In this document: positions 26,601 to 38,389 of the stretch, in pieces | How the letters are laid out: the number at the start of each line of letters is the position of its first letter | Position numbering within the stretch: the stretch's first letter is position 1 | DNA from: Pantoea wallisii | GTDB taxonomy: Bacteria > Pseudomonadota > Gammaproteobacteria > Enterobacterales > Enterobacteriaceae | DNA length: 64,000 nucleotides | Assembly: GCF_002095485.1 (NCBI RefSeq) | Contig: NZ_MLFS01000014.1 | Coordinates: forward strand, 1 to 64,000 | Direction: 5' to 3' | The notes under the pieces: model-generated | What the model was told of the DNA's origin: nothing | The model's input: only the letters and a program-made list of their open reading frames with translations | Databases searched by the model: none | Program-made: the position numbers and the translations under genes

Positions 26601-26772
26601 GGTGCGCATAAATGCGCACCCTACAAACGGCCTCGGGATTGACCTGGTGCGCATGAATGCGCACCCTACAAACGGCTTCGGGATTGGCAGGTGCGCATAA
26701 ATGCGCACCCGATATGGCTTCGGGTTTGCCGGGTATTACTGCATCCCTGTAGGGTCGCCATTAATGGTGACC
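26601..26772. repeat. Cluster of four 20-bp palindromes between dolP and yhaK
   Basis: Three copies of GGTGCGCATRAATGCGCACC (26601-26620, 26646-26665, 26690-26709) and one of the sister type GGTCGCCATTAATGGTGACC (26753-26772). The first three are spaced 44-45 bp apart and separated by similar CTACAAACGGCYTCGGGATTG text. The same families recur at 28532, 33571-33818 and 42333. Confidence 0.85.
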
Positions 26773-27618: not shown

Positions 27619-28518
27619 ATGGCAAAAGAGCGCGCGTTAACGTTAGAAGCTTTACGTGTGATGGATGCTATCGACCGGCGCGGCAGCTTTGCCGCTGCGG
27701 CTGATGAACTGGGTCGTGTTCCTTCGGCCCTGAGCTACACCATGCAGAAGCTGGAAGAGGAGCTGGATGTGGTGCTGTTCGACCGCTCCGGCCACCGCAC
27801 CAAGTTCACCAACGTCGGCCGTATGCTGCTGGAGCGGGGCCGCGTACTGCTGGAGGCGGCCGATAAGCTTACGACCGATGCCGAAGCGCTGGCGCGCGGC
27901 TGGGAGACCCATCTCACCATCGTTGCCGAAGCGCTGATTCCCACCGACCTGCTCTTTCCGCTGGTGGGAAAACTGTCAGAGAAAGCCAATACGCAGATTT
28001 CGCTGGTCACGGAAGTGCTGGCCGGTGCCTGGGAGCGGCTGGAGCAGGGGCGCGCCGATATCGTGATTGCGCCGGATATGCACTTCCGCGCCTCTACCGA
28101 GATCAATACGCGCAAACTGTATAGCGTCATGAGCGTCTACGTTGCCAGCCCGGATCATCCCATTCATCAGGAAGCGGAGCCGTTATCCGAAGTGACGCGC
28201 GTGAAATATCGCGGCATTGCGGTGGCCGATACCGCACGCGAGCGTCCGGTGCTGACGGTGCAGCTGCTGGATAAACAGCAGCGGTTGACGGTGAGCAGCA
28301 TGGATGACAAGCGCCGCGCGCTGCTGGCCGGGCTTGGCGTGGCAACAATGCCCTACCCGATGGTGGAGAAGGACATTGCTGAAGGGCGCCTGCGCGTAGT
28401 CAGCGCCGAGTACACGCGCGAGGTGGATATTATCATGGCGTGGCGCCGCGACAGCATGGGCGAAGCGAAAGCCTGGTGCCTGCGCGAGATCCCTAAGCTG
28501 CTGGCAAAGCGTGGTTAG
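27619..28518 (+). CDS. yhaJ: YhaJ, LysR-family transcriptional regulator
   Basis: The 299-residue LysR-type regulator has an N-terminal winged helix (ALRVMDAIDRRGSFAAAADE) and a C-terminal effector domain. It is very similar to E. coli YhaJ, which activates yhaK and senses aromatic compounds such as 2,4-dinitrotoluene products. The divergent position next to yhaK supports local control. Confidence 0.94.
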   Translation: MAKERALTLEALRVMDAIDRRGSFAAAADELGRVPSALSYTMQKLEEELDVVLFDRSGHRTKFTNVGRMLLERGRVLLEAADKLTTDAEALARGWETHLTIVAEALIPTDLLFPLVGKLSEKANTQISLVTEVLAGAWERLEQGRADIVIAPDMHFRASTEINTRKLYSVMSVYVASPDHPIHQEAEPLSEVTRVKYRGIAVADTARERPVLTVQLLDKQQRLTVSSMDDKRRALLAGLGVATMPYPMVEKDIAEGRLRVVSAEYTREVDIIMAWRRDSMGEAKAWCLREIPKLLAKRG

Positions 28519-28531
28519 GTTGAGAATGCCA

Positions 28532-28599
28532 GGTGCGCATAAATGCGTACCCTACGAAAATCAGGTTTGCAACTGTAGGGCCGCCGCTCATGGCGACCG
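28532..28599. repeat. Palindromic repeat pair after yhaJ
   Basis: GGTGCGCATAAATGCGTACC (28532-28551) is one unit of the dispersed family. A decayed GGCCGCC-GCTCA-TGGCGACC unit follows at about 28579-28599. The pair sits between two convergent genes. Confidence 0.75.
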
Positions 28600-28637
28600 C
28601 AGCCTGATGAGGATGCCTGGGGGCCAGACAGCACCGA

Positions 28638-30548
28638 TCACATCCGGCTCAGGCAATCCATCGCTACCGCTTTAAAGCTGACAAAGTCAGTGCAGTCGCG
28701 CAGGCGCGTCATCGCCCGCTCGCGTAAAAACGTCACGAACAGATCGTAAATCGCCATCGCCTCTTCATATTCGCTCTTGCTGATGGCCAGCAGGAAAATC
28801 ACCGACGCGGTCTCATCTCCCCAGCTTACGCCATGGGGCGCCAGCACCGTATAGACCACGGTTCTCTTTGCCAGCAAACCCAGCGAGTGCGGCAGCGCGA
28901 TGCCTTCGCCCAGCAGGGTGCTCACGATCGCTTCGCGCTCCTCCACGGAGGGGTAAAAATCCCCCTCGACATAGCCTTCCGCCTGTAGCTGATCGCACAA
29001 GCGCTGAAACAGCGCCGACTGGCTGATCGGCTGGTCAAGCACCAGGAAGTGCTGCGCGTCAAAGTACTTCTCCAGCATGTAGGGCCGCGTGCGATCCACC
29101 AGCACCAGCTTGCCAAGCTGCTCCAGCTGGAAGCCAGAAGGGAACGGCGACATCACAACCACCGGGGTGTTTTTCTCGCTCAGACGCACGGTGGAGATCA
29201 CGAAATCTTCATCGATCTGTTCCCGCATCTCGTAGTCGCGCTGCGACAGGCGCGCCGTCACCACCAGCTGTGGGTATTTGCGCAGCAGCAGCGCTTCAAT
29301 CATGCGCAGGGTAGAGTTGCCGCTGTCGCACACCAGCAACACCCGGGGATGGCGCTGATAACCGACATCGTAATGCCGCTCCAGCCCGACGCCGATATGC
29401 AGCACCAGAAAACCGATCTCGTTCTCGCTGATGGTATAGGGCGTATATTTACCCCAGCTGGTCACCGCAGCCAGCGTTACGTCATACGCCATCGGATAGT
29501 GCTGCTTGATGTTGCTCAGTAACGGATTGGGAATATGTATCTGGTAGCGCACCCGGGTAATCATGGTTTTGATATGGGTGAGCAGATCGGCGCGCAGCTG
29601 CTCATCCTGCTGCAGCCGGTAGTTGTAGTGCATGTTGATGTAATTCAGCAGGTAATCCACCAGCGCATCGGCGTCATCGGCGTTGATGGTGCTGGGGGCC
29701 AGCACCTGAATCTGACGCGCGGCGATATTGACGCGCAGCCAGTTCTCCTCCGCCTGTGACACTGCTTTGCCCACCAGTGGCCGCAGCAGGTTGACCAGAT
29801 CGTGCGCCGCCTCGCGTACCTCTTCCCCGACATCTTCAGCGCCAGGATCGTTAAGCGGAAACCCTTCGCTGATGCGCCGCACCGCCACCGCACAGTAGAT
29901 GTGCAGATAGCGCTCGCCTTCGTCGCTCAGGCGGATCGCGTGGCGGGCGAAACAGTGCTGCAGCAGCGGTTGCAGCTGCTGCAGCATGCCGCTGTGCAGC
30001 GCCTCGACGCTCAGCAGCGGGCTCTCCGGCGTCTCCTGATCGATTTGCCACAGCAGATCGGTCAGGCAGGTGCGAATTGCCGCTTCACTGCCAAACAGCT
30101 TCATGCCGTAGCGCGGTTTGGTTTCAATATTCAGGTGATAGCGGCCCAGCCACTCGCGCACCTCTGCCATGTCGCTTTGCAGGGTGGCGCGGCTGACAAA
30201 CCACTCCTCCGAGAGATCCTCCAGCTTGAGCGACCAGGCAGCGGTAAGGAAGCGGCACAGCAGATAGCGCACGCGATCCTGCGACGTGCGCGGTACCCGC
30301 AGCGGCGCGGCGCTCTCCTCCTGCAGCCGGTCAAAGCGCGCCGCATCGTCCACTTTCAGCTGATACCCTGCGCCGCGCGCCAGCACAAACCGGGCGCCAT
30401 GTTGCGCCAGCAGGGCGTTCAGCGCCGTGATATCGGTACGCACCGTGCGCGTTGAAACAGAAAAACGCCGCGCCAGCTCATCCTGCGGCAGCGTTTCGTT
30501 TTGCAGCGCAGCGAAAAGTTGAGCCAGACGCTGGTTGGGAAATCTCAC
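28638..30548 (-). CDS. BglG/Mga-type PRD transcriptional regulator with EIIB and EIIA domains
   Basis: The 636-residue regulator begins with a DeoR-like helix-turn-helix (LARRFSVSTRTVRTDITAL) and a second Mga-like one (about residues 95-155). Two PRD domains follow (about 180-400), then an EIIB-like domain with Cys in LLVCDSGNSTLRM and an EIIA-like domain with His in LGEGIALPHS. Such proteins read the phosphorylation state of a PTS and activate sugar operons. It is the last gene of the minus-strand cluster, 24 bp after the aldolase. No PTS permease is encoded nearby, which is odd for this class. Confidence 0.85.
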   Translation of the reverse strand: MRFPNQRLAQLFAALQNETLPQDELARRFSVSTRTVRTDITALNALLAQHGARFVLARGAGYQLKVDDAARFDRLQEESAAPLRVPRTSQDRVRYLLCRFLTAAWSLKLEDLSEEWFVSRATLQSDMAEVREWLGRYHLNIETKPRYGMKLFGSEAAIRTCLTDLLWQIDQETPESPLLSVEALHSGMLQQLQPLLQHCFARHAIRLSDEGERYLHIYCAVAVRRISEGFPLNDPGAEDVGEEVREAAHDLVNLLRPLVGKAVSQAEENWLRVNIAARQIQVLAPSTINADDADALVDYLLNYINMHYNYRLQQDEQLRADLLTHIKTMITRVRYQIHIPNPLLSNIKQHYPMAYDVTLAAVTSWGKYTPYTISENEIGFLVLHIGVGLERHYDVGYQRHPRVLLVCDSGNSTLRMIEALLLRKYPQLVVTARLSQRDYEMREQIDEDFVISTVRLSEKNTPVVVMSPFPSGFQLEQLGKLVLVDRTRPYMLEKYFDAQHFLVLDQPISQSALFQRLCDQLQAEGYVEGDFYPSVEEREAIVSTLLGEGIALPHSLGLLAKRTVVYTVLAPHGVSWGDETASVIFLLAISKSEYEEAMAIYDLFVTFLRERAMTRLRDCTDFVSFKAVAMDCLSRM

Positions 30549-30572
30549 GGAGCCTCACCTGTTACTCATTTG

Positions 30573-31310
30573 TTACAGCAGTTTCTTGCACGTTGCCAGA
30601 AGCTGACGCACGTCGTCAATGCGCGTATCACCGCTGGCGCTGTCGATGATCGAGCTGTACACGTGCGGAATGATTTTACTGACGCCCGCATCCAGCGCGA
30701 TACGCACGATCTCCTCGAAATTAGCGAGGTCAATACCGCCGGTTGGCTCCAGCCAGAAGTCACGGCGCGCGCAGGCTTCCGCCACCGCACGGTACTCGTC
30801 CACCGCTTTCAGGCCGCCCATGGGGAAATATTTCACCGAACTGCCGCCCATGTCCTGCAGCATGGCGATGGCGGTATCGATCGGCACAATCGCGTCATCA
30901 GCCTGGGCGCTGCGCGGGCCGGTGGAGATTTTCACTTTTCCCGGCGTGCCGGTTGGCGACACCAGACCGTTGACCACCGTATGCGGCTGGCCGAGCAGCG
31001 CGCGGCTGGTGGCCACGCCGGTAAAGACCTGATTAACGTGCTGCGGCTGCAGCACGGCGGCGATTTCACTCACCATTGCCGACTGATTGGGATCGCCTGC
31101 GCCCAGCCCGACTGACAGCGCGTTATCAATCAGCGCCGCGTACTCGCGCATATCGGCAATCGCCGCCTCATTGCTGGCGTAGTTTTTTGACAGCACGCCC
31201 ACCAGCACGTGTCCCTCCGCTGCCTGCCAGATCGCCTGCGCGTTCTGCTTCGAACCGGCCAGCACGTTAAGGCACAGACGATCCTGATAAAAGTTTGGGT
31301 TCAGACTCAT
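30573..31310 (-). CDS. DgaF-like 2-keto-3-deoxy-6-phosphogluconate-type aldolase
   Basis: The 245-residue protein matches the DgaF/KDGP aldolase family, which cleaves 2-keto-3-deoxygluconate 6-phosphate to pyruvate and glyceraldehyde 3-phosphate. Visible features are GLVSPTGTPGKVKISTG and VKYFPMGGL, where a Lys is expected to form the Schiff base, and FWLEPTGGIDL. Its start overlaps the DgaE-like gene by 4 bp. In Salmonella this enzyme acts after DgaE in D-glucosaminate use; the exact substrate here is not known. Confidence 0.85.
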   Translation of the reverse strand: MSLNPNFYQDRLCLNVLAGSKQNAQAIWQAAEGHVLVGVLSKNYASNEAAIADMREYAALIDNALSVGLGAGDPNQSAMVSEIAAVLQPQHVNQVFTGVATSRALLGQPHTVVNGLVSPTGTPGKVKISTGPRSAQADDAIVPIDTAIAMLQDMGGSSVKYFPMGGLKAVDEYRAVAEACARRDFWLEPTGGIDLANFEEIVRIALDAGVSKIIPHVYSSIIDSASGDTRIDDVRQLLATCKKLL

Positions 31311-32428
31311 GCGCGTTCTCCTCCGCTGATTAACGCCTGGATACGGCTAAAGATGATATGCAGCTGATCGGCGCTGACGCTGCGCACATCGGCTTCGATA
31401 ATGCCTTCATTGGCTTTGTAGCCGCGGAAGTAGATCGCGATAGCACCAGTTTTCAGCGCCTGCACCAGCTCGCCCGTCGGCCAGCCGGTGACCGCTTCGT
31501 CAAACTTAATCTCAGCACGGGCGATATCCCGGCCTGCGGCATCCCACACCACGCGCGCCGTTACGCCGTTAAGCGTGTTCAGGTTGTCGATAAAGGGCGT
31601 CATGTTAGCCACCATCTCCGCGCCGGTGGTTTTGGCGATGATCAGGTAGTTTTCAATCGCCTGCGTCAGGCCCAGAATGCCCTCTTTACCCACTTTCATG
31701 GCACGGCCAATGCCGTTGCTCTGGCGTTTCACCCACTCAACATATTGCGTGCGCCCGATAACCAGCCCGCTTGTAGGCCCTTCAATGGCTTTGGCCCCGC
31801 TGTAGATCACCAGGTCTGCGCCCATCTGGTAGTAGCACTGCAGATCCTCTTCCGCTGCCGCATCGACAATCAGCGGCAGCCCGTGTTTACGCGCTACCAC
31901 GGCTGCCTGCTCGACGCTGAGATGGCTTTTCTGCACGCAGTGGTGCGATTTGATGTACATCAGCGCTGCCGTGGTGGGCGTAATCGCCGCAGCCAACTGC
32001 TCGGGCGAGCATTCGTTGCTGTAACCCGCTTCCACCAGGCGTCCGCCGCCCAGCGCCACCATGGTGCCGACCGGTGCACCAAAGTTTACGTTGTGGCCTT
32101 TAGGCACCACGATATCGTGCGGTACGGCCAGCGGCGCAGCGTGCAGGTTCTCCAGCAGCCAGTCGTTGTCTTTAACGATCACCGCCGCCACGCTCTGCGC
32201 GATGCCTGCTGAGGCGCAGGAGACCACCACCGCACTCTCCACCTCCAGCAACTTTGCAATGTAAGCGCCGGTTTTATTGACCAGATCTTTCATTTCAAAG
32301 TAGTGATTCAGGCCGTAGCTGACGGTATCCACCACATCGGCTGACGGCGTAGAGACGCCCAGAATGGTCATGCGACCGGAGGCGTTGATGACCTGTTTCA
32401 GGTCATATTTTTCATAAATCGAAGACAT
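31307..32428 (-). CDS. DgaE-like PLP-dependent ammonia-lyase (SelA fold)
   Basis: The 373-residue SelA-like PLP enzyme has the cofactor Lys in VIYSGAKAIEGPTSG and the Asp in LPLIVDAAAEEDLQ. Salmonella DgaE removes ammonia from D-glucosaminate 6-phosphate to give the 2-keto-3-deoxy acid. I chose the start MSSIYEKYD after GAAGGGAAAG; it overlaps the amidohydrolase gene by 17 bp. Coupling to the aldolase on the other side supports consecutive steps. Confidence 0.87.
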   Translation of the reverse strand: MSSIYEKYDLKQVINASGRMTILGVSTPSADVVDTVSYGLNHYFEMKDLVNKTGAYIAKLLEVESAVVVSCASAGIAQSVAAVIVKDNDWLLENLHAAPLAVPHDIVVPKGHNVNFGAPVGTMVALGGGRLVEAGYSNECSPEQLAAAITPTTAALMYIKSHHCVQKSHLSVEQAAVVARKHGLPLIVDAAAEEDLQCYYQMGADLVIYSGAKAIEGPTSGLVIGRTQYVEWVKRQSNGIGRAMKVGKEGILGLTQAIENYLIIAKTTGAEMVANMTPFIDNLNTLNGVTARVVWDAAGRDIARAEIKFDEAVTGWPTGELVQALKTGAIAIYFRGYKANEGIIEADVRSVSADQLHIIFSRIQALISGGERA

Positions 32429-33545
32429 GATTGGCTTTCCCTTCATCGGTCAGATGCCACTGACCCGCGATAACCACGGCCAGCGGCAGCACATGTTGCT
32501 CACCCGTCACCTGTTCGCCTTCAGCATCGACGAACGGGCGGGCTTCCTCTTTGACGGTAAAAATAGTCAGGTCAGCGTCGTAGCCTTCGCTCAGACGCCC
32601 TTTGCCTGTCAGGCGCAGGCCAGCCGCAGCCTTGTGAGTCACGCAGTCGATCACCTGCGGCAGCGTCATGCCGATGCTGAAAAATTTCGACATCACGTGC
32701 GCCAGGCTGTGCACCGGGCCATTGAGGCGATTACGGCAGTAGATATCAGAGCTGATGGTTTCGGGCAGAATGCCCTGCGCAATCGCCTGACGTGCGACTT
32801 CAAAACTAAAACTGGCGCTACCGTGGCCGATATCCAGCTTGACGCCGCGCGCGATAGCGTTTTTCACCGCCGCTTTGAGCTCACCCTGCGGTGAAAGGAT
32901 ACGGTTCGGCTTGCCGTTAAAGCAGTGGGTGATGATGTCGCCGGAGGTCAGCAGATCGGCAATCTCCTCCAGCACCGGCGGATTGTTGCCAATGTGCACC
33001 ATCAGCGGCAGATTACCGGCAGCCTGCTGAATAGCTTTCGCGCGGACCAGCGGCTGAATACCGTTATTCCCCACGACGCTGCTGCTCATGCGCGCCTTCA
33101 GGCCGACGATAAAGTCAGGCCGACGTTTAACCGCCTGCACCACCGCCTCGCCGTCGATCTGCGCCATGTCGGCCAGCTCGTTCTGCGTGACGATGCCGGT
33201 GCGCGAGATGTTAATAAGCGCACGCACGTTGGTGGTCGCCGGGCGGGTGAGTTGATAAAAGTCGTCGATATGATCGGCACCGGTGCTGCCCGCATCCACC
33301 ACCGTGGTGACGCCCTGTGCCACGCCAATCGCATCGGCTTCGTCGTGGTAAATGGGTGATTTGGGATAGCAGTGCACGTGGCTGTCAATCCAGCCGGCGC
33401 TGACGTAAAAGCGTCCGCCCAGATCGCGCTCCTGCTGTGCCGGGCCGTTCACCTCACCGACGGCGGCAATTTTGCCGTCACGGATGGCGATATCCACCCG
33501 CTGTTCATCGCACAGACGCGCGCGGCGCAGAATCAGGTCAAACAT
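32412..33545 (-). CDS. Amidohydrolase/deacetylase-family metallohydrolase (cog3964 type)
   Basis: The 377-residue amidohydrolase-superfamily protein shows the metal ligands: HVH in GWIDSHVHCYP, the carboxylated Lys candidate in IVGLKARMSS, His in LMVHIGN and ITHCFNG, and the catalytic Asp in ISSDIYC. Characterised relatives remove acetyl groups from small chiral acids such as acetyl-(R)-mandelate. Beside DgaE- and DgaF-like enzymes it probably deacylates the imported compound first. Older annotation as dihydroorotase or adenine deaminase would be misleading. Confidence 0.85.
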   Translation of the reverse strand: MFDLILRRARLCDEQRVDIAIRDGKIAAVGEVNGPAQQERDLGGRFYVSAGWIDSHVHCYPKSPIYHDEADAIGVAQGVTTVVDAGSTGADHIDDFYQLTRPATTNVRALINISRTGIVTQNELADMAQIDGEAVVQAVKRRPDFIVGLKARMSSSVVGNNGIQPLVRAKAIQQAAGNLPLMVHIGNNPPVLEEIADLLTSGDIITHCFNGKPNRILSPQGELKAAVKNAIARGVKLDIGHGSASFSFEVARQAIAQGILPETISSDIYCRNRLNGPVHSLAHVMSKFFSIGMTLPQVIDCVTHKAAAGLRLTGKGRLSEGYDADLTIFTVKEEARPFVDAEGEQVTGEQHVLPLAVVIAGQWHLTDEGKANHVFDL

Positions 33546-33570
33546 GCTTACTCCTTACTGCGTTTGTTGA

Positions 33571-33818
33571 GTGCGTATAATGCGCACCCGACAGAACATA
33601 TCGTGCCGTTGCCAGGTGCGCATAAATGCGCCCCCTACAAAACACATGGCGCTGTTGTTGGATCGCCATGAATACGTATCCGACAAAACACATGGTGCCG
33701 TTGCCAGGTGCGCATAAATGCGCACCCTACAAAACGCATGGCGCTGTTGTTGTACCGCCATTGATACGCACCCGACAAAACACACCATGCCGTTGTAGGG
33801 TCGCCATTAATGGCGACC
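33571..33818. repeat. Array of seven palindromic repeat units inside the accessory operon
   Basis: Units lie at 33571-33588, 33615-33634, 33660-33681, 33707-33726, 33751-33771 and 33799-33818, alternating the GGTGCGCAT...ATGCGCACC and GGTCGCCATTAATGGCGACC families with decayed members between. They are joined by conserved text (CTACAAAACACATGGCGCTGTTGTTG type) at about 45-bp spacing. The array fills the whole gap between the DUF4310 gene and the amidohydrolase gene. Confidence 0.85.
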
Positions 33819-33824
33819 GCTCTG

Positions 33825-34472
33825 TTACAGCGAAATCGGGAACATCGCGCCCAGCACCATGGCGCCGAGGATGGCACCGCCGGTGATCGGCTTATTCCAG
33901 AGATAAAACAGCAGCGCACCGAGCAGCGAGCCGAGCCCGATCGGAATCGACGCTGCCATCGCAGAGAGGATAATCAACGGCCCGAGGAAGCGGCCAGAGG
34001 CGTTACCGGCGCCCATCATCACGTCAGCACCGTAGGTGGAGTCGCTCTGATTGATGGTGAACTTACGCGCCAGAATAATCACGTAGCCAATGGCCACGCC
34101 AATCACCAGGCCCGTCGCCAGTGAGGCGGCAAAGTTTGCCACCGGGAAGACAATGCCGGCACCCAGCAGCAGCGCCGGCACGCCCAGGCCGACGCCGGTC
34201 TGAATCGCGCCGCCGATATCAAGAATCCCTACCAGCGATCCCTCAATGATGCGGGCAAACAGGAAGCTGGCACCAAAGGCCGCTACCGCGCCATACACGC
34301 CAGTTTCCATGCCGGAACGCAGCATCGAAACAAACGCCACTTCGTTAAACGCACCGATGCCATACAGGTAGTACATGTGCGTACCGGCGAACACGCCCGA
34401 AGAGAGCAGGCCGACAAAAATCGGGAAGGACCAGTCGGCGTACCAGAACCCCTTGTTTTCGTTCTCGTTCAT
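33825..34472 (-). CDS. DUF4310 membrane protein
   Basis: The 215-residue hydrophobic protein of the DUF4310 family has about six membrane segments rich in glycine and alanine (LGVPALLLGAGIVFPVANFA; GAILGAMVLGAMF). I chose ATG 34472 after AAGGAGCC. It starts 12 bp after the DUF4311 gene, and these two always appear to travel together. Likely a transporter subunit, inferred from topology and neighbours only. Confidence 0.85.
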   Translation of the reverse strand: MNENENKGFWYADWSFPIFVGLLSSGVFAGTHMYYLYGIGAFNEVAFVSMLRSGMETGVYGAVAAFGASFLFARIIEGSLVGILDIGGAIQTGVGLGVPALLLGAGIVFPVANFAASLATGLVIGVAIGYVIILARKFTINQSDSTYGADVMMGAGNASGRFLGPLIILSAMAASIPIGLGSLLGALLFYLWNKPITGGAILGAMVLGAMFPISL

Positions 34473-34484
34473 GCGCAAGGCTCC

Positions 34485-35261
34485 TTATTTGCCGCTCAGG
34501 CTGTTGTGAATCATGTCGAGCCAGCCAGGAATGCCAAGCTGGAAGGATTGCAGCAGTTTCATGTCAAAGCCGCGGAAGAAGCCGCTCAGCACAAACAGCA
34601 GCACAATGGCGAACATCATCACTTTGGTGACTCTGTTCCAGCCGCTCTCCTCTACGCCTTTACCGATCAGGATCCCCAGCACCAGGCCCGGCACTGCGTT
34701 GCCCATGATCAGCTGGGCCAGACCGCCGAAGATGGTGGCCCAGAAGCCCGATTTTTTACCGGCGTCAATCGCGGCCAGCCAGAAGATCACCGGCATAACG
34801 GTGTTCACCAGCAGGTTGGCTGCCGGCACCAGCACTTTCACCGCCGTGACCTGCAAAGCAGCAGGCACGGCGGATGCGGTGCTGTTCAGGAACGCCACCA
34901 CAATCATGCCGATGATGCCGCAGGCAATCGCCATGCGCTTCGGGTTGTGTAAGGTCTCTGCGACATTGCGGTTTTTCACCATCAGTGCCGCGGCGCCCCA
35001 GTTAGGCAGAATGCGGTGGTCGACGTCCTGCGTGAAGGAGCCCGCAGCGACGGAAGATGCCCAGGCGTTAAAGAAGAAGCCGAGACCAAAGGAGAAGTGC
35101 GAAGCGGGATCGCCCTCGCAGGAGTTGAGTTCGCCCAGCGTACGGAACGCGCCCATGCCCTGCGTGGTCGGGGCATGGAACATGCGCGCCGCGCCCGCTC
35201 CGACACCCACGCCAACTAATCCACCGATGATTAACGACTTAAACAAAATGATTAAAAACAT
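34485..35261 (-). CDS. DUF4311 membrane protein
   Basis: The 258-residue polytopic protein of the DUF4311 family has several hydrophobic segments: LFKSLIIGGLVGVGVGAGAA at the N-terminus, then MAIACGIIGMIVVAFLNS and MMFAIVLLFVLSGFF. It resembles no well-known transporter by eye. With DUF4310 it probably forms the membrane part of an uptake system for the substrate of the adjacent enzymes. Confidence 0.85.
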   Translation of the reverse strand: MFLIILFKSLIIGGLVGVGVGAGAARMFHAPTTQGMGAFRTLGELNSCEGDPASHFSFGLGFFFNAWASSVAAGSFTQDVDHRILPNWGAAALMVKNRNVAETLHNPKRMAIACGIIGMIVVAFLNSTASAVPAALQVTAVKVLVPAANLLVNTVMPVIFWLAAIDAGKKSGFWATIFGGLAQLIMGNAVPGLVLGILIGKGVEESGWNRVTKVMMFAIVLLFVLSGFFRGFDMKLLQSFQLGIPGWLDMIHNSLSGK

Positions 35262-35310
35262 ATTGTTGTACCTTTTGTTATCGTCTTATTAACCGGCTAG
35301 CCGGGCTACT

Positions 35311-35610
35311 TTATGGTGTCGCCGTAAATTCGACGCTCTCTGTGTCAATGACGGTGACGCTGACGGTAATCTCCAGCTCAACGCTGTAGTTCCGTCGTTC
35401 ACGCGCGAGAAAGAAGAACAGAAACTTCTCCTTTCGTACGCTCTCCTGTGCGCGCAGCACCCGCACATCCAGCGGTTCAATGCGCAGCAGAATTTTCTGG
35501 CTGGTGCGCAGCACCTGCTGCTGCACCTTACTGAGCGCATCGGCGAAGGCTTTTGCTTTGCTGTCGCCTTTGCCCTGCACCGTTACCTGCGTCTCATATT
35601 GCTGTTTCAT
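35311..35610 (-). CDS. DUF4312 small cytoplasmic protein
   Basis: The 99-residue protein of the DUF4312 family is charged, with no signal or membrane segment. It has an alpha-beta pattern with a C-terminal beta-rich part (VELEITVSVTVIDTESVEF). Its start is 2 bp after the SFCGS gene. Function unknown; it is likely an accessory subunit of the DUF4310/4311 system. Confidence 0.82.
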   Translation of the reverse strand: MKQQYETQVTVQGKGDSKAKAFADALSKVQQQVLRTSQKILLRIEPLDVRVLRAQESVRKEKFLFFFLARERRNYSVELEITVSVTVIDTESVEFTATP

Positions 35611-35612
35611 GC

Positions 35613-35969
35613 TTAGCTGCCGTGCTTCTTATTCCAGGCCTGCACCAGACGCTCGCCCAGCTCCTCTTTATCCATAAAGCCAAAGCCCAGCACGGTGGCA
35701 CCTTCATTGATGGCCGTTACGCCCTCATCAACCGAGCGCATACCGTGTTTGGCTTTGTAGCCATACTTGTTCTGTGCGGTGATAGCACCTGCCCCGCCGC
35801 TGCCGCAGAACGAGATCCCGAAGTCAGCGTTCTCCGCTTTCATCACGTCGCCCAGCTTCATATCTGCGGCAACGCCCGGCACCACTACCGCACGGCCGCC
35901 CGCTTTCTCAATACCCGCAGCCACTTTCTGCCCTTTACCCAGGCGATCGCCAATCACTACTGTTACCAT
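35613..35969 (-). CDS. SFCGS-motif glycine-rich protein
   Basis: The 118-residue cytoplasmic protein carries the family motif ISFCGSGGAGAI at about residues 53-64 and a Rossmann-like start (VTVVIGDRLGKGQKVAAGIE). The Cys-Gly-Ser-Gly-Gly loop looks like the phosphocysteine loop of small PTS EIIB proteins. E. coli YhfU, of similar size and in a comparable operon, has an analogous Gly-rich loop. I chose ATG 35969 after GAGGAAACGAG; longer upstream frames run into the PRD gene. Confidence 0.85.
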   Translation of the reverse strand: MVTVVIGDRLGKGQKVAAGIEKAGGRAVVVPGVAADMKLGDVMKAENADFGISFCGSGGAGAITAQNKYGYKAKHGMRSVDEGVTAINEGATVLGFGFMDKEELGERLVQAWNKKHGS

Positions 35970-35988
35970 GCTCGTTTCCTCTCTCAAT

Positions 35989-36327
35989 TCATGCTTCGTT
36001 CGATTTCGCCACTTCGATATGCACTGACAGCAGCCAGGCCTCTTCGATGGGCAGGTTGCCAAACAGATCCACCACCTGTCGTGCCAGCGCCATGGTCTCT
36101 GGCGGGATATCGTCAAACAGCTCAGCCTCCACATCCGGCAGTGCTTCTCCGGTCAGGGAGCGTGCCGCCATGGCCCGGACATGCGAGGCCAGCATCTGCT
36201 GCTGCACCGCATTGGCTTCGATATGGTGTGCGGCATAGATGGCCGCGATCTGGTTCATTACGTTATCCGCCAGCGCCTGAATCGCTTCCGGCGTGCTTGG
36301 TTTCAGCGGGACAGCATCACTCCTCAC
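35989..36327 (-). CDS. Stand-alone PRD-domain protein
   Basis: The 112-residue protein consists of little more than one PTS regulation domain with His in candidate phosphorylation positions (SHVRAMAARS; LSVHIEVAKS). It lacks a DNA-binding domain. The likely start is GTG at 36327, seven bases after AGGAG. It is the first gene of the accessory operon. Similar lone PRD proteins accompany SFCGS/DUF4310-4312 sets, and E. coli has yhfY in the yhf operon. Confidence 0.8.
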   Translation of the reverse strand: MRSDAVPLKPSTPEAIQALADNVMNQIAAIYAAHHIEANAVQQQMLASHVRAMAARSLTGEALPDVEAELFDDIPPETMALARQVVDLFGNLPIEEAWLLSVHIEVAKSNEA

Positions 36328-36563
36328 CCTGGTACTCCTGTTTACAGCGGACAAATACAGATAATTCGCGTTGAAAAGAAATTACGCTTTCCGCTGGCGG
36401 GTGTGGAGACGCATCTTTTCCACCTCGAAGTGGAAATCGTGCGGGTGAGTGTGCGCCAGATCGCAGCATGCACGAAGTATGCGAAACCAATCACAAAATG
36501 CAGGTTATGAGGGCGATAAGGCTTATCAGGCGGCGAAGTGTGCGGCGGGCGCGGGGGAAACAA

Positions 36564-36583
36564 GGCCAGCACTGTCGCTGGCC
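36564..36583 (-). terminator. Hairpin after cybC
   Basis: GGCCAGC pairs with GCTGGCC around ACTGTC, 8 bp after the cybC stop on the minus strand. The following T-rich stretch is weak, so termination is only likely. Confidence 0.5.
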
Positions 36584-36590
36584 CTGACTA

Positions 36591-36977
36591 TCAGCGGAAT
36601 TTCTTATGGTTGGTATTACGGATATCTTCCAGCTTCTTCGCTTCCGATTTCGCTGCGTCCAGTTTGTTGGCCTTCGCCAGCTGGTCGACAACCTCAATCT
36701 GCGCAATCAGCGAATTCAGACCGGCGTGGTAATCTTTGATCTCCGCGCTATCAGCCGCTTTACCTTCCAGTTTTTCCGGCGTCGATTTTTTGGCATCTTC
36801 CGCTGCGGCGCGCATTTTGCCGAGGGCAGTTTGCATCTCCTGCGCGTCGGACGTTTTCTTCACCACGCTCAGACCATCCTTAAGGGTATCCATATCCTGT
36901 TCCAGGTCAGCAGCAAATACGCTGGCCGAGGAGAACAACAACGACAGAGACAACATTGCAATCAGATGCTTACGCAT
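36591..36977 (-). CDS. cybC: Cytochrome b562
   Basis: The 128-residue periplasmic four-helix haem protein has a signal peptide ending SASVFAA. The mature start DLEQDMDTLKDGL supplies the axial Met, and NTNHKKFR at the C-terminus supplies the axial His, as in E. coli b562. Its electron partner is unknown. It lies next to tldE, as in E. coli. Confidence 0.92.
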   Translation of the reverse strand: MRKHLIAMLSLSLLFSSASVFAADLEQDMDTLKDGLSVVKKTSDAQEMQTALGKMRAAAEDAKKSTPEKLEGKAADSAEIKDYHAGLNSLIAQIEVVDQLAKANKLDAAKSEAKKLEDIRNTNHKKFR

Positions 36978-37003
36978 TGAGTTTTCCTATAATTATTGTG
37001 GGC

Positions 37004-37032
37004 ATAAAAAAAGCAGCCTTGTGGGCTGCTTT
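37004..37032 (-). terminator. Terminator after tldE
   Basis: On the minus strand, AAAGCAGCC-CACAA-GGCTGCTTT is followed by TTTTATG, 17 bp after the tldE stop and upstream of cybC. Confidence 0.88.
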
Positions 37033-37048
37033 CAGGAAGCGATGTCTT

Positions 37049-38389
37049 TTATTGTCCGGCGATTTTCATCTCCGGCAGCAGCACCGAACCGCATTGTATA
37101 TTGCTGCGCGTTTCAATGTCGTTACCAACCGTTACCATATTGAGCCACATATCTTTAAGGTTACCGGCAATTGTGATCTCGCTCACAGGATATTGAATTT
37201 CGCCGTTTTCCACCCAGAAACCGGCGGCACCACGCGAGTAGTCACCGGTCATGGCGCTGACGCTGGAACCCATCAGCTCCGTTACGATCAATCCACGCCC
37301 CATCTGTTTCACCAGGTCGTCAAAGCTGTGGCCCTGGCCCGCGATGCGCCAGTTATGAATGCCACCGGCATGACCGGTGCTTTGCAGACCCAGCTTGCGC
37401 GCCGAATAGCTGGTCAGCAGCCAGTTTTGCAGTACGCCATCTTTGATGATCTCACGCGCTTCGGTGCGTACGCCTTCGCTGTCGAACGGCGTCGAGGCCA
37501 GCCCTTTCAGCAGGTGCGGCTTCTCTTCAATGGTCAGCCATGACGGGAAGATCTGAGTGCCGAGCGCATCCAGCAGGAAGGTGGATTTGCGATAGACGCT
37601 GCTGCCGGCAATCATGCCCACCAGGTGGCCAAACAGGCCGGTGGCGACTTCCGGTGCAAACAGCACCGGCGCTTTCATGGTGGGCAGCTTGCGCGGGGCC
37701 AGGCGCGCCAGAACGCGACGTGCACACTCGGCACCCACCCAGTCGGCGCTTTGCAGCTCATCGATTGAGCGGCCGATGGTATAGGCGTAATCGCGCTCCA
37801 TGTTGCCATCCTGCTCGGCAATCACGCAGCTGGAGAGCGAATGCCGGCTGGAGCAGTAGCTCTGCAGCATGCCGTGGCTGTTACCAAACACTTTAATGCC
37901 CACGTGGCTGTTGAAGCTGCCACCTTCGGTGTTGGTAATGCGCTTGTCCGCCTGCAGCGAAGCCTGCTCGGCTTGCGCGGCCAGTTCGATGGCGCGATCG
38001 GCGTCGATCTCCCATGGGTGATAGAGATCGAGATCCGGCGCGTCAAAGGCCAGCAGCTCGCGATCGGCAGGCGCGGCATAGGGATCGGGCGAGGTATAGC
38101 GGGCAATATCGATCGCCGCCTGCACGGTGCGTTTGATGGCATCCGGGCTGAGATCGGTCGACGAGGCGCTGCCTTTGCGGTTTTGATGATAGACGGTGAT
38201 GCCGAGCGCACCATCGCTGTTGAATTCGACGTTTTCCACTTCGCCGTAGCGGGTACTGACACCAATGCCGGTGGTTTTGGTGACCGCCACCTCTGCTCCA
38301 TCGGTGCTGGCTTTTGCCAGTTCCAGTGCCTGCGCGACAGCCTGTTCTAACACTTTACGTTGTTCTGCAACCTGAGTAGATACGTTCAT
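37049..38389 (-). CDS. tldE: TldE (PmbA), metalloprotease subunit
   Basis: TldE pairs with TldD to form a protease that matures microcin B17 and degrades CcdA in E. coli. The 446-residue protein matches the PmbA family across its length, with [20 protein letters not shown] and [20 protein letters not shown] near the C-terminus. TldE lacks the metal site, which resides in TldD. It is divergent from darP, as in E. coli. Confidence 0.95.

Follow-up and report, generated by a model that had tools for sequence, protein, structure and literature searches.

A conserved nine-gene cassette of Pantoea wallisii, tentatively assigned to phosphotransferase-coupled uptake and breakdown of an amino sugar acid

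We describe a cassette of nine tightly packed genes on the minus strand of a 64-kb stretch of Pantoea wallisii DNA (the window, to which positions refer unless a locus is named), at 28638-36327, which we tentatively read, with a confidence that stops a little short of even, as a system for the uptake and breakdown of an amino sugar acid, in which uptake is coupled to phosphorylation by the phosphotransferase system (PTS) through a relay involving a PRD protein and an SFCGS protein. In the order of transcription the genes encode a small PRD protein, SFCGS, DUF4312, DUF4311, DUF4310, an amidohydrolase, a DgaE-like lyase, a DgaF-like aldolase and a regulator; a preliminary description of this DNA had given the same genes, span and order, and inspection of the reading frames together with Pfam and NCBIfam profile searches, which supply the protein identities used below, confirmed it. 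As we infer it, transport, relay, substrate and regulation would run as follows. DUF4311 and DUF4310 would form the membrane channel, with SFCGS, DUF4312 and the small PRD protein as cytoplasmic partners, and the phosphoryl group would pass from phosphoenolpyruvate (PEP) to EI/HPr, then to a PRD histidine, to Cys55 of SFCGS and finally to the substrate, for which an N-acylated 2-amino-2-deoxyaldonate (N-acetylglucosaminate, for example) is the likeliest candidate. The amidohydrolase would take off the acyl group, DgaE would eliminate ammonia to give 2-keto-3-deoxy-6-phosphogluconate (KDPG), and DgaF would split this into pyruvate and glyceraldehyde 3-phosphate, whilst the operon would be switched on by the regulator, phosphorylated via the same relay. 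Such a role would give a function to four Pfam families (DUF4310, DUF4311, DUF4312 and SFCGS) carried by many Enterobacterales and some enterococci, and the prediction is a sharp one, naming two histidines, one cysteine and a pathway.

A DUF4311 profile run against 84,980 species genomes gave 500 reported relatives, of which the best 80 were retrieved, along with three plasmid-collection records (Enterococcus, L097; Bartonella, L098; Klebsiella, L099) and 11 short loci; the survey thus leans to near relatives (the 80 closest of 500), and its rows are not independent. Cassette genes were found in 94 loci, and all nine were matched in 81 of the 81 that could be assessed, the other 13 being truncated, either at contig ends (L005, L082) or through the 3.6-kb size of the locus; a matched gene need not be intact, as L059 appears broken. 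The full loci belong mostly to close relatives, plus Bartonella and Enterococcus. Gene order was identical in 79 of them: in Enterococcus the regulator comes first, and L036 has the order PRD, DUF4312, SFCGS. Because nine genes were matched in every assessable locus, with the same order in all but two, the arrangement is far beyond chance, and the pairing of the DUF4310-4312/SFCGS set with homologues of the deacylase, DgaE and DgaF, seen in the preliminary description, is conserved elsewhere. Conservation within the cassette is highest in the membrane proteins and SFCGS, with identities to the Enterococcus proteins of 74% for SFCGS, 69% for DUF4311 and 68% for DUF4310, followed by 53% for DgaE, 48% for the amidohydrolase, 41% for DUF4312, 32% for the PRD protein and 20% for the regulator; when the Bartonella forms are included with those of Enterococcus, the window's two membrane proteins are 68-72% identical to their counterparts. 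Within Pseudomonadota the cassette is sporadic, present in 12 of 398 sampled genomes, all from the window's own family (12 of 18 among those listed). The DUF4311 gene had no DNA matches in a collection of E. coli genomes, and no relatives of DUF4310 were found in viral contigs.

The residue counts given below include the window protein, and keep proteins of 0.85 to 1.25 times its length. Rows dropped by length were L036 for SFCGS, L082 for DUF4310, L059 and L073 for DgaE, L059, L073 and L097 for DgaF, and L059 for the regulator; the amidohydrolase rows leave aside the 11 short loci, and L059 was also left out of the set used for DUF4310 profile alignments. The Serratia rubidaea cassette L059 looks decayed, with DUF4310, DgaE, DgaF and regulator matched partially, and at the Pantoea stewartii locus L073 DgaE and DgaF were matched partially.

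Several parts of the cassette look tied to the PTS. The small stand-alone PRD protein (112 amino acids; 35989..36327, with a GTG start at 36327) is of the EF_0829/TIGR03582 family (118 bits, cut-off 69; E 1.9e-34), is not matched by Pfam PF00874, and has His49 and His103 at the two PRD phospho-histidine positions in 95 of 95 rows. In profile comparisons it aligned with PRD1 of the regulator (P 0.0005 against 0.09 for the reversed control; hhalign probability 32%), whilst the second-best alignment placed both histidines on His325 and His384 of regulator PRD2, at a P of only 0.067. No DNA-binding domain was matched in it by Pfam, and its gene lies in the transport half of the operon. The regulator (636 amino acids; 28638..30548, with a GTG start at 30548) comprises HTH_11, Mga, PRD and EIIA_2 domains in Pfam; its PRD2 histidines are kept in 81 of 81 rows and its EIIA His554 in 80 of 81, the exception being Enterococcus, and Cys407, part of an EIIB-like motif recognised by eye and unmatched by Pfam EIIB, is likewise kept in 80 of 81. 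On the Bartonella plasmid, 64 bases beyond the cassette and in the same orientation, lies a gene for an HPr-EI fusion protein of 671 amino acids (L098:8047-10062) made up of PF00381 and three PEP-utiliser domains; the window genome's own EI-type genes are open frames of 580 and 752 amino acids. CRP-like sites (at least 8 of 10 positions) lie upstream of the cassette in 54 of 87 related, non-independent loci, against 12% of simple shuffles; in the window the upstream region (36328..36590, minus strand) contains TGTGATTGGTTTCGCA at -168 from the PRD start. HPr-like genes near the Serratia and Chimaeribacter cassettes were considered as a further PTS link and rejected: they are encoded on the strand opposite the cassette, one next to the gene of what we take to be a RapZ-like protein, and are presumably ordinary chromosomal npr.

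The SFCGS protein (118 amino acids; 35613..35969; PF14272, E 1.5e-60) carries Cys55 within the motif ISFCGSGGAG in 94 of 94 rows, and weakly resembles RpiB and DUF2620 proteins. It was hit by RPI_actino, a ribose-5-phosphate isomerase model (E 5.8e-4), by DUF2620 (0.0022) and by LacAB_rpiB (0.015), all below curated cut-offs, and scored 15.7 bits against PF02502, where the cut-off of 24.7 places it outside the RpiB/LacAB family. Profile alignments gave P 7.6e-4 to YhfU (reversed 0.12) and P 0.004 to RpiB (reversed 0.22), and searches of the PDB returned no significant relative, with sub-threshold hits to RpiB (E 1.3, sequence) and nitrogenase (1.1, profile). SFCGS has the CG[ST]G loop and C-terminal half of the RpiB/LacAB isomerases, which act on ribose or galactose 6-phosphate; unlike them, it is shorter and is tied to membrane genes in every full locus. 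Kinship to RpiB is, on these comparisons, probable. Next in the operon are DUF4312 (99 amino acids; 35311..35610; PF14189, E 3.7e-34; TIGR03578 above cut-off) and the membrane proteins DUF4311 (258 amino acids; 34485..35261; PF14188, E 4.7e-121) and DUF4310 (215 amino acids; 33825..34472; PF14187, E 5e-106), each with at least five hydrophobic segments by hydropathy. The idea that the membrane proteins resemble the Mtr sodium pump of methanogens was dropped, as their profiles retrieved no Mtr chain from the PDB at E values up to 10. An alignment that mixed DUF4311 with DUF4310 and took in four fused database proteins was set aside as misaligned.

The yhf operon of E. coli (yhfS-yhfZ) offers a parallel, encoding the small PRD protein YhfY, the membrane protein YhfT and YhfU, a DUF2620 protein that is weakly SFCGS-like. 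In Cetobacterium (L111:7294-15657) YhfZ, PRD, DUF2620 and YhfT genes are followed by amidase, phosphotriesterase, PLP and mutase genes, and here the PRD, small protein and membrane protein genes are adjacent and ordered as in the cassette. The enzymes of yhf operons differ from those of the cassette, and because the trio recurs with different enzymes, the analogy suggests that it constitutes the transport half. YhfT is a single protein of 434 amino acids, for which no profile similarity to DUF4311 or DUF4310 was detected; that it might be a fusion of the two, on a motif alike by eye, was rejected (profile P 0.12 and 0.21, against 0.14 and 0.11 reversed). PF10797 (YhfT) had no matches in the window genome at E values up to 10, and its 11 weak matches in 274 genomes of the class were all below the cut-off. 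A DUF4311 match in an E. coli control genome, considered as YhfT, is suspected to be the same artefact as weak matches in two other genomes, which fall in a glycine-rich segment that we take to be DjlA-like. A bolder form of the proposal would see in DUF4311, DUF4310, DUF4312, SFCGS and the PRD protein a PTS permease of a new class, without kinship to the known enzymes II (EII), with the PRD protein as EIIA, the RpiB-like SFCGS as EIIB acting through Cys55, DUF4311/DUF4310 as the membrane unit and yhfT/U/Y as its parallel. We regard this form as rather doubtful; were a relay of PRD and RpiB-like proteins true, the PTS would gain a new kind of permease, and the unexplained yhf operon a model.

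The enzymes of the cassette point to the chemistry of its substrate. The lyase (31307..32428) belongs to the DgaE family of pyridoxal phosphate (PLP) ammonia lyases (TIGR01437, 585 bits, cut-off 385; E 3.9e-176); its start is most likely 32428, giving a 17-base overlap with the amidohydrolase gene, and a longer form from an alternative in-frame ATG at 32446 was used for protein comparisons. Passages of a study of the D-glucosaminate-6-phosphate enzyme assign, by docking, the phosphate to Arg301, Arg332 and Arg346 and the carboxylate to Arg226, and establish His163 as the proton donor (PMC9529869). In the cassette lyases Arg301, Arg332 and Arg346 are invariant in 80 of 80 rows (the window and 79 loci), as are His163 and the lysine that binds PLP (chain residue 213 by our count, Lys-217 in those passages); His162 is kept in 79 (Ala in Bartonella), and position 226 has Arg in 43 rows but Lys in the other 37; the window protein has all the active-site residues that were checked. 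Because the phosphate-binding arginines are invariant, the substrate of DgaE is likely to be phosphorylated. The aldolase (245 amino acids; 30573..31310; KDGP aldolase, E 2.2e-106), of the KDPG type, passes the DgaF equivalog model NF047796 (385 bits, cut-off 300). The Salmonella D-glucosaminate operon dgaABCDEF has the DgaE-family lyase and DgaF aldolase in common with the cassette, and its import is said to be by a mannose-family PTS; unlike it, the cassette has no member of an EII permease family, has an additional amidohydrolase, and has a DgaE below the equivalog cut-off. The amidohydrolase (377 amino acids; 32412..33545), presumed to be a deacylase, is a metallo-enzyme of the EF_0837/cog3964 type (TIGR03583, 558.6 bits, cut-off 432; E 5.9e-168), and each of its presumed metal ligands is conserved in 81 or all 82 of the 82 rows. 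It aligns with 2ICS over residues 2-372 and with 2OGJ over 15-344, with the presumed metal-site residues aligned; we take these structures to be EF_0837 and Atu3266, both cog3964 amidohydrolases. Atu3266 hydrolyses acetyl-(R)-mandelate.

Outside Enterococcus, gaps of more than 350 bases occur solely beside DgaF: 28 loci have one between DgaF and the regulator, and one has another between DgaE and DgaF. In 26 of the 28 (26 of 81 cassettes) the DgaF-regulator gap contains a seven-bladed lactonase, as at L099:14505-15659, and the seven lactonase N-termini inspected by eye look like secretion signals; the window has no lactonase. In one Erwinia locus (L050:15114-17326) the same interval contains a CesT-family chaperone and a frame of 592 amino acids, by arrangement like a type III secretion pair. 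Taken together, the DgaE sites, DgaF, the amidohydrolase and the lactonase point to an amino sugar acid bearing an acyl group, which may be obtained by way of its lactone and would be phosphorylated before DgaE acts. In E. faecalis the interval between DUF4310 and the amidohydrolase (L097:13620-16355) contains a PF02378 EIIC, a protein of 99 amino acids with no Pfam match and a MupG-type 6-phosphomuramidase, the last a hint that the source there may be cell-wall amino sugars.

A number of observations weigh against PTS-coupled uptake or parts of it. The linkage to HPr-EI is that of one plasmid and could not be repeated: DUF4311 was carried by none of 374 genomes from an alphaproteobacterial-looking family and by none of 397 from the order to which that family belongs. 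Several of the more distant loci lack CRP-like sites, and among the loci listed none was detected at L056, L060, L067, L075 and L097. In E. faecalis the cassette includes an EIIC and adjoins a PfkB kinase, and the regulator lacks an EIIA match. The role of the PRD sites may be purely regulatory. In E. coli, yhfY lies three genes from yhfU (yhfU and yhfT being adjacent), and by our reading YhfY-type proteins have Asn in place of the second PRD histidine. The hhalign probabilities are 8% for SFCGS-RpiB and 25% for SFCGS-YhfU, in shallow alignments, and in RpiB the cysteine acts as a base and not as a phosphate carrier. The PRD protein, SFCGS, DUF4312, DUF4311 and DUF4310 match no EIIA-D family of Pfam at E values up to 1. 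Lastly, the window DgaE, within the wider TIGR01437 family, scores 368 bits against the DgaE equivalog cut-off of 600, and the sugar may therefore differ; the phosphate arginines kept in DgaE are consistent with a route through an amino-sugar-acid 6-phosphate.

The most serious alternative, although we judge it unlikely, is a non-phosphorylating transporter, in which uptake would be ion-driven, an unlinked kinase would make the 6-phosphate and the PRD parts would only sense PTS traffic for gene control. It would account for the lack of detectable EII homology; PRD and EIIA/EIIB domains are known to serve as modules of regulators, and the E. faecalis cassette adjoins a kinase. However, no kinase was matched by Pfam or NCBIfam among the nine genes, to which that search was confined, the other cassettes leave little room for one, the Bartonella cassette has its HPr-EI, and the small PRD protein, with no Pfam DNA-binding domain, sits in the transport half. 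A second alternative is that DUF4311 and DUF4310 are EIIC and EIID diverged past sequence recognition, making the cassette a classical PTS of a hidden subfamily: two membrane subunits beside PTS-linked genes would recall the mannose-family systems, such as that reported for Salmonella dga, but the two proteins have no Pfam EIIC/EIID match at E values up to 1, and their profiles recovered no EIIC or EIID chain from the PDB at E values up to 10, so that we hold this to be improbable. Equally improbable is a membrane-bound enzyme or sensor, with SFCGS isomerising or epimerising the substrate as an RpiB-like enzyme and another permease, e.g. the Enterococcus EIIC, importing it, since the weak RpiB likeness with its kept cysteine loop and the separate EIIC of E. 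faecalis are set against 80 other full cassettes with no permease-sized gap except beside DgaF, where lactonases fill all but two, and against membrane proteins conserved to a degree that indicates a core function.

PTS-coupled uptake is thus the reading we retain. The preliminary description had the set replacing the PTS permease: the window set indeed lacks an EIIC/EIID match, but PTS parts are present in the PRD protein, the regulator, the Bartonella HPr-EI and the E. faecalis EIIC, and judged by these the gene set looks tied to the PTS and not a substitute for it. The idea of a transporter survives the two tests made at the level of sequence, kinship to EIIC/EIID and co-conservation with the enzymes, and should be cast as PTS-coupled rather than PTS-replacing.

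The gene set itself is not new, its members corresponding to the EF_0829-EF_0839 set of E. faecalis. Eight of the nine window proteins score above curated NCBIfam cut-offs, seven of them to 'hypothetical equivalog' models (TIGR03582, 03577, 03578, 03580, 03579, 03583 and 03581) and the eighth, DgaE, to TIGR01437, whilst the regulator is above no NCBIfam cut-off. The seven models are named after EF_0829-EF_0833, EF_0837 and EF_0839, six also with Aeromonas AHA names. The E. faecalis cassette differs from that of the window in the EIIC, 99-residue and MupG proteins within it, the adjoining PfkB kinase and the regulator in first place. Open-access PMC literature, searched by DUF and SFCGS names, TIGR numbers, EF locus names and amidohydrolase names, gave no function for the set; the earlier word 'unrecognised' is apt as to function, but NCBIfam already models the set, as hypothetical. 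In the portions seen of two E. faecalis studies EF_0838 is only tabulated, as a selenium transferase or selenium-metabolism gene (PMC11135667, PMC7701990); in our analysis it is a DgaE-family lyase, and the selenium label is probably annotation carried over from similarity to SelA. Duplicates of dgaE/dgaF in E. faecalis are recorded in part of a gene-duplication study (PMC7396535).

The tight packing previously described holds throughout the operon save for one loose gap of 279 bases between DUF4310 and the amidohydrolase (33546..33824, minus strand). This gap contains two of six copies of the 24-base palindrome GTAGGGTGCGCATTTATGCGCACC, which occur with 0-2 mismatches at 26601-26713, 28532-28555 and 33615-33730, and of which 100 shuffles produced none. 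An Rfam search of 28000-37500 found no family at gathering score. The cassette is flanked at 36591-38389 by cytochrome b562 and PmbA/TldD genes, and the same genes flank it in the Klebsiella record L099.

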